Part shown: positions 22,474-22,553 of the stretch, piece by piece
Numbering within the stretch: the stretch's first letter is position 1
Layout of the letters: the number at the start of each line of letters is the position of its first letter
From: Herbiconiux sp.
GTDB taxonomy: Bacteria; Actinomycetota; Actinomycetes; Actinomycetales; Microbacteriaceae
Assembly: GCF_004297105.1 (NCBI RefSeq)
Contig: NZ_SCVE01000006.1
Coordinates: 1 to 64,000, forward strand
Direction of reading: 5' to 3'
Length of the DNA stretch: 64,000 nucleotides
Made by a program: the position numbers and the translations under genes
The notes under the pieces: model-generated
Database searches by the model: none
Told to the model about the DNA's origin: nothing
The model's input: only the letters and a program-made list of their open reading frames with translations

Positions 22474-22512
22474 CCGCGACGAGGGAGGCCTTGAAACTAG
22501 GACTCGTCGCGG
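22474..22512 (-). promoter_or_regulatory. leuA attenuator hairpin
   Basis: On the minus strand CCGCGACGAG (22503-22512) pairs perfectly with CTCGTCGCGG (22474-22483) across a 19-base loop. The first arm lies inside the last codons of the leader peptide, so a ribosome stalled on the Leu codons would leave it free, while a ribosome that finishes would cover it. This links translation of the leader to the structure ahead of leuA. Confidence 0.65.
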
Positions 22513-22541
22513 CAGCTAAGAAGGAGCGAACCGAACAGCAC
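22497..22541 (-). CDS. leuL: leuA leader peptide
   Basis: This 14-residue frame reads MLFGSLLLSCRDES, with GTG as start. Four of its 14 codons are leucine (CTG, CTC, CTT, CTT), three of them in a row. It lies 72 bases upstream of leuA on the same strand. The GTG has TAACTT six bases upstream and would be translated from the very 5' end of the mRNA. Leader peptides rich in the end-product amino acid are the classic sensors of attenuation and are known for leuA in Actinobacteria. The call rests on the Leu run, the position and the overlapping hairpin. Confidence 0.7.
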   Translation of the reverse strand: MLFGSLLLSCRDES

Positions 22542-22547
22542 GGATAT

Positions 22548-22553
22548 AAGTTA
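22548..22553 (-). promoter_or_regulatory. -10 hexamer of leuA leader
   Basis: The minus strand reads TAACTT, six bases before the GTG of the leader peptide. It predicts that the leuA transcript starts at or next to that GTG. Confidence 0.45.

Follow-up and report, generated by a model that had tools for sequence, protein, structure and literature searches.

A probably leaderless leucine leader element upstream of leuA in Herbiconiux sp. and its counterparts upstream of leuC and a second leuA in Microbacteriaceae

The window analysed here is a 64,000-nucleotide stretch of the genome of Herbiconiux sp. (contig NZ_SCVE01000006.1, positions 1 to 64,000). Between 22556 and 22424 on its minus strand, an extended -10 box, six bases, a short leader ORF, the hairpin P2, a Shine-Dalgarno (SD) sequence and the start of leuA follow one another in the 5' to 3' direction (Table 1), with 117 nt from the leader GTG to the leuA ATG. 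The leader reads GTG CTG TTC GGT TCG CTC CTT CTT AGC TGC CGC GAC GAG TCC TAG and holds four Leu codons, at positions 2, 6, 7 and 8. An earlier note on this DNA, whose interval 22474-22553 runs from the end of the stem to the -10 box, had described a 14-codon frame with four Leu codons and its final codons in a perfect 10-bp stem, and rechecking the coordinates and the frame bears this out: the stem is the hairpin P2, and the last leader codons lie inside its 5' arm. The hexamer TAACTT, which the same note had placed six bases 5' of the GTG, is found at 22553-22548. The assignment as a leuA leader with a leucine sensor also stands, as the ORF with its Leu run lies upstream of a 2-isopropylmalate synthase gene confirmed by NCBIfam. 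Two further helices can be drawn, P1, which carries two mismatches in the window copy, and P3, in which TCCTTC of the Leu run and GAGGGA of the leuA SD form six pairs, one of them G-U. The loop of P2 contains the self-complementary hexamer AGGCCT (22486-22491), which is present in 80 of the 95 rows of alignment A3; it could pair with the tail GGC or with its counterpart on another RNA molecule.

Table 1. Features of the leuA leader region in the window
Feature	Position	Strand	Basis or remark
Extended -10 box TGG-TAACTT, TGGTAACTT	22556-22548	-	no recognisable -35; sequence read and comparative consensus
Leader ORF GTG...TAG, 14 codons, VLFGSLLLSCRDES	22541-22497 (including TAG)	-	predicted start is the first base of the RNA; spacing statistics
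Sensor run, Leu codons 6-8 (CTC CTT CTT)	22518-22526	-	frame reading and codon bias
Anti-Shine-Dalgarno TCCTTC within the Leu run (helix P3, 5' arm)	22520-22525	-	duplex prediction and permutation test
leuA Shine-Dalgarno GAGGGA (helix P3, 3' arm)	22439-22434	-	sequence and duplex prediction
Hairpin P2, 5' arm CCGCGACGAG, bases of codons 10-13	22512-22503	-	folding, conservation, two-sided changes
Hairpin P2, 3' arm CTCGTCGCGG	22483-22474	-	folding, conservation, two-sided changes
Helix P1, 5' arm GGTTCGCT	22525-22532	-	within the genus, leuA copies mostly have GGTCTGCT
Helix P1, 3' arm GGCTTACC	22462-22455	-	all 21 other elements aligned within the genus have GGCTGACC
leuA, 2-isopropylmalate synthase, 588 aa	22424-20658	-	ATG at 22424; NCBIfam match

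The element is well kept in relatives of Herbiconiux. All 22 elements of the genus keep the 10 pairs of P2 without a change, and the Leu run, the start codon and the short distance to the -10 box are retained in most loci, so that both the stem and the Leu codons proposed in the earlier note are conserved. Within the genus, variation among the 22 elements was too small for covariation to be tested, and the score lay below that of their own shuffles. Across the 95 distinct rows of alignment A5, two-sided changes were seen in 10 of 17 pairs (5 of 10 in P2, 5 of 7 in P1), amounting to 49 two-sided cells where shuffled alignments averaged 8.9, with none of 500 shuffles reaching as many; as A5 was fitted to the structure model and its rows are related, this count leans towards that structure. 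In permutation tests, which took the sequences as unrelated, 14 of 2000 permutations were as good as helix P1 and 89 of 2000 as good as the loop-tail pseudoknot pairing; support for both is weak. The folding energy of the leader as a single sequence is unexceptional (z 0.06), and a search with Rfam 15 returned only two tRNAs at gathering score in the window and no hit at E values up to 1 between 22400 and 22750. Taken together, conservation, family-wide matches and two-sided changes confirm, at the level of sequence, that a leader element with a stem is present and is not a product of chance. We identify it as a copy of the LEU element described by Seliverstov et al. 2005 (PMC1262725), that is, as a new instance of a known element.

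To describe its distribution, we used a covariance model built from the 22 genus elements (R1) and a wider model (R2). R1 matched 189 of 199 genomes of the Microbacteriaceae, the family to which Herbiconiux belongs, and, in the phylum at large, 15 of 296. R2 matched 116 of 120 Microbacteriaceae genomes, with at least two matches in 75, one in 41 and none in 4 (second matches were inspected in part), and 154 of 198 genomes in the order; of the 140 outside the Microbacteriaceae, eight held two matches and the rest one. Three R2 matches (L243, L247 and L250) were rejected as false, with neither LeuA or LeuC downstream nor a leader. When 140 model matches were classified by the downstream gene, 94 preceded LeuA, 44 LeuC and two neither. 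Dropping four of them (one antisense, three secondary) and removing four repeats gave 132 distinct loci, and leaving out L042 and L044, which have no Leu-run leader, and two loci without an SD by the rule used gave 128, from which 124 distinct pairs were permuted and 124 sequences folded.

The spacing between the -10 box and the start codon argues for a leaderless leader. Among the 132 distinct loci, in which the start codon was chosen partly by its nearness to TAnnnT, the distance from the end of this hexamer to the start codon is 6 nt in 101, 7 nt in 20 and 5 nt in one, thus 5-7 nt in 122, with 9-10 nt in eight and no TAnnnT box in two; the background frequency of TAnnnT is 80 per 102,434 upstream positions. 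A TG at -9/-8 from the hexamer end, for which we did not select, is conserved in 86% and 93%, respectively, of the 121 loci with 5-7 nt spacing, and the upstream consensus of these loci is GTGnTAnnCT. A match of at least 4/6 to the -35 box TTGACA was found in 26 of the 121 loci (21%) compared with 13% in shuffled sequences, at most a slight excess. The bases before the GTG of the window contain no visible SD. The spacing and the TG extension, together with the precedent of LeuL1 in Streptomyces lividans discussed below, indicate that the leader of the window is probably leaderless, as the earlier note had supposed, and the leaderless state seems to be normal for the LEU element. A dispersed repeat covers 22557-22663 of the window, with at least 16 matches in its own genome including this locus, at least 42 and at least 43 in two congeners and none in one, among the at most 40 candidate places scored per genome. 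As this repeat reaches up to the TGG of the extended -10 box, the entire -35 region of leuA in the window copy has been replaced by repeat sequence, which makes the strength of the promoter uncertain.

In the genome from which the window derives, just one further element was found, upstream of leuC, with LeuC confirmed (L009:2401-2517; G000:C10); its leader encodes the peptide VLFGRLLLRCRDES, then a stop, and its pairing is TCCTTCG/CGAAGGA. Within the genus, leuA and leuC copies were both read in 9 of 13 genomes, and one copy was examined in each of the other four. Outside the genus, we read both copies in 24 two-match genomes that rank among the best R1 scores in the Microbacteriaceae and represent 15 genera; all 24 carry one leuA and one leuC element, and the same was seen in eight further two-match genomes (G033, G050, G066, G071, G072, G088, G092 and G094), so that this arrangement is present in 32 of the 32 two-match Microbacteriaceae genomes read outside the genus. 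In genomes with a single match, the copy belongs to leuA in 12 of 12 examined and in G086, G090, G104 and G155. Third copies precede a second, divergent LeuA that is about 50-54% identical to that of the window (six rows: L242, L244, L245, L246, L248 and L249), with L174, L175 and L176 as further cases. Our search of the open-access literature found no published leuC or second-leuA leader of such a kind; the leuA leader is of a known kind, and the leuC and second-leuA copies are the part for which no prior report was found there.

The copies within a genome may also have exchanged sequence. The 3' half of the leuA element in the window differs at a mean of 5.0 positions from leuC copies and at 8.2 from other leuA copies, whereas its 5' half is nearer to leuA (3.5 differences compared with 5.1 from leuC). 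Similarly, the leuC elements of G001 and G010 combine a 5' half that is a leuA form with a leuC-like 3' half. These differences suggest gene conversion between paralogous leuA and leuC elements (22455-22497 in the window; L010 and L013).

A weaker second element with Val, Ile and Leu codons was observed in two other families of the order, f18 (G029, G599, G613, G639 and G653) and f2 (G013), at loci L235, L236, L237, L238, L239 and L241 (near position 1501) and L411-L423. These elements encode leader peptides such as MTRQVVILICRGEFR and MARQLVILSSRGEFR, each followed by a stop, and precede a conserved gene for a microprotein, some 20-38 codons long; the copy at L239 (G013) is without the 6-nt spacing. 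With the microprotein of G029 as query, a counterpart was found in 13 of the 198 genomes of the order, and the gene that follows it was identified with NCBIfam as leuB in eight, ilvD in three and neither in two of the 13. By the filter used, a leader at leaderless spacing precedes the microprotein in 5 of the 13, and all five stand before leuB.

How might the LEU element control leuA? We consider it probable that it attenuates leuA at the level of translation in response to leucine, with ribosomes probably starting on the sensor ORF at the very 5' end of the transcript. When Leu-tRNA is ample, the ribosome would complete the 14 codons and depart, after which the Leu codons would pair with the SD sequence and leuA would be shut. 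When charged Leu-tRNA is scarce, the ribosome would stall on the Leu codons and cover the anti-SD, leaving the leuA start exposed. In accordance with this, the predicted duplex between the Leu run and its own SD region has an energy of -11.08 kcal/mol compared with -10.14 (sd 0.166) for permuted pairs, and none of 5000 permutations did as well; here, the SD regions of the 124 distinct pairs were permuted within gene class and kinship was ignored. In 6 of the 124 pairs, the Leu run is without a perfect match of at least four bases to the chosen SD region, the rule for picking the SD having erred in some loci (e.g. L102). The leuC copies of the genus mostly pair as TCCTTCG/CGAAGGA, and a matched change to TCCTTCT/AGAAGGA is present in G001 and G010. 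CTT accounts for 251 of 475 Leu-run codons (52.8%) compared with 2.7% of 183 Leu codons in six genes of the window, a bias that fits SD pairing as well as a sensor codon that is read slowly.

Folding of the 124 sequences, in which covered states were compared with the free state and not with shuffled sequences, gave a predicted mean openness of the SD of 0.17 when free, 0.36 with the Leu codons covered and 0.20 with the stop region covered. Covering the Leu codons is predicted to raise SD openness by more than 0.05 in 92 of the 124 and to lower it in 13, and the mean with the Leu codons covered ranged from 0.30 to 0.46 over 12 footprint settings, with a predicted rise in all 12. For the window copy, the predicted openness falls from 0.21 to at most 0.04 in nine of the 12 settings and rises in three. 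This predicted failure to open has its origin in a competing partner: with the 5' arm of P2 covered, the 3' arm is free to pair with GAGGGA. As the window copy is an exception in nine settings, the attenuation model is less certain for it; we thus favour translational attenuation for the element generally and hold it less surely for the copy in the window.

Several other readings have to be weighed against translational attenuation. The earlier note had pointed out that attenuation of leuA is known in Actinobacteria. A leader peptide with Leu codons whose last codons lie inside a 10-bp hairpin is what an attenuator of the classical type, with terminator and antiterminator hairpins, would have. 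This classical reading is not supported and we regard it as extremely unlikely, since no terminator-like site (hairpin plus U-run) was found at 22350-22760 of the window and the hairpin is followed by AGTCTGTCG, without a T-run; the anatomy fits sequestration of the SD by the Leu codons instead. The lack of an intrinsic terminator would suit Rho-dependent transcription attenuation, in which a stalled or absent leader ribosome alters the access of Rho, a possibility that PMC1262725 offers for terminator-less cys leader peptides. The leader is, however, short and structured, and the Leu run matches its own SD better than permuted ones, which makes a Rho-based mechanism quite improbable.

Seliverstov et al. 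favour a different explanation, namely that a regulatory protein, for which a DEAD-box protein is their candidate, binds to the element; on this reading, the leader peptide would be of minor importance. The strong conservation of the hairpin and the widespread AGGCCT loop of alignment A3 speak for this, as do the mutation data summarised in PMC1262725. The retention of the Leu run, the start codon and the leaderless spacing in most loci, however, speaks against a minor role of the peptide, and the preference for the rare codon CTT points to ribosome speed, although SD pairing could favour CTT too; we therefore see a protein-binding site as an unlikely alternative. Lastly, the mRNA might begin further upstream and the leader be translated from an internal start. 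The dispersed repeat that takes the place of the -35 region would fit such a start, given the uncertain promoter strength, but the spacing and the extended -10 box are conserved in most related loci and no SD precedes the GTG of the window, so that we judge an upstream start to be very unlikely.

The sensor codons of translational attenuation double as the anti-SD bases, and mutations in these codons would thus alter both functions. In S. coelicolor, leader mutations gave results inconsistent with classical attenuation (Craster 1999, as summarised in PMC1262725), and the sharing of bases may be the cause of these paradoxical results on leuA. As two and sometimes three paralogous elements stand in front of different genes in one genome, nature provides variants that can separate the sensor codons from the SD pairing, and these make directly testable the question, open since the S. 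coelicolor work, of whether the leuA leader is an attenuator. The loci also form a large set in which sensing would take place at leaderless initiation, with a promoter that seems to consist of an extended -10 box alone. We tentatively put forward a broader picture, plausible but far from secure, in which a leaderless attenuator whose sensor codons serve as anti-SD has been copied as a module. In Microbacteriaceae it would act on leuA, leuC and second leuA genes, its copies having changed their anti-SD in step with the SD and exchanged sequence with one another; elsewhere in the order, in other families, a version coded for Val, Ile and Leu would act on a conserved microprotein gene beside leuB. 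The shared bases could then explain the S. coelicolor paradox.

Leaderless amino-acid-responsive short ORFs may occur elsewhere in actinobacteria: Canestrari and colleagues reportedly described leaderless poly-cysteine uORFs in mycobacteria in 2020, which, to judge by the title, are of the same general sort and sense cysteine rather than leucine. In Corynebacterium diphtheriae, the ilvB leader, which according to PMC5784534 encodes a branched-chain leader peptide and has its transcription start site at the start of the leader, belongs to a different gene and differs in peptide but is of the same branched-chain type; for ilvB leaders, terminators have been predicted (PMC1262725). The leuA uORF of Mycobacterium abscessus is ribosome-protected (PMC4974804). 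The closest relative of the leader in the window is the LEU element itself, reported upstream of leuA in most Actinobacteria studied, with Leifsonia xyli, which belongs to the Microbacteriaceae as well, in the genome set. It comprises a leader ORF containing successive Leu codons that pair with the leuA SD, and a pseudoknot inside a base stem (PMC1262725). Both share the location upstream of leuA in an actinobacterium, the Leu-run ORF, the pairing of Leu codons with the SD and a compact conserved structure. As to the pseudoknot, the hairpin P2 covaries in A5 and the loop-tail pairing is a candidate with weak permutation support, the exact published form having found no match. PMC1262725 names only leuA as target, whereas leuC and, in some genomes, a second leuA are added here, and the word leaderless does not occur in it. 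The earlier note had regarded the leaderless sensor as the unusual part, which has to be revised, as LeuL1 of S. lividans (MRFGLLLLSCRGEGL), upstream of leuA, has already been reported from transcription start site data as leaderless and without a typical terminator, in a species in which the distance from -10 box to start site averages 6.3 nt (both PMC8079986). A peptide identical to LeuL1 occurs in 8 of the 132 loci, all from one genus, probably Streptomyces, and these are set apart from the 122 loci with 5-7 nt spacing by a TAnnnT that ends 9-10 nt before the ATG.
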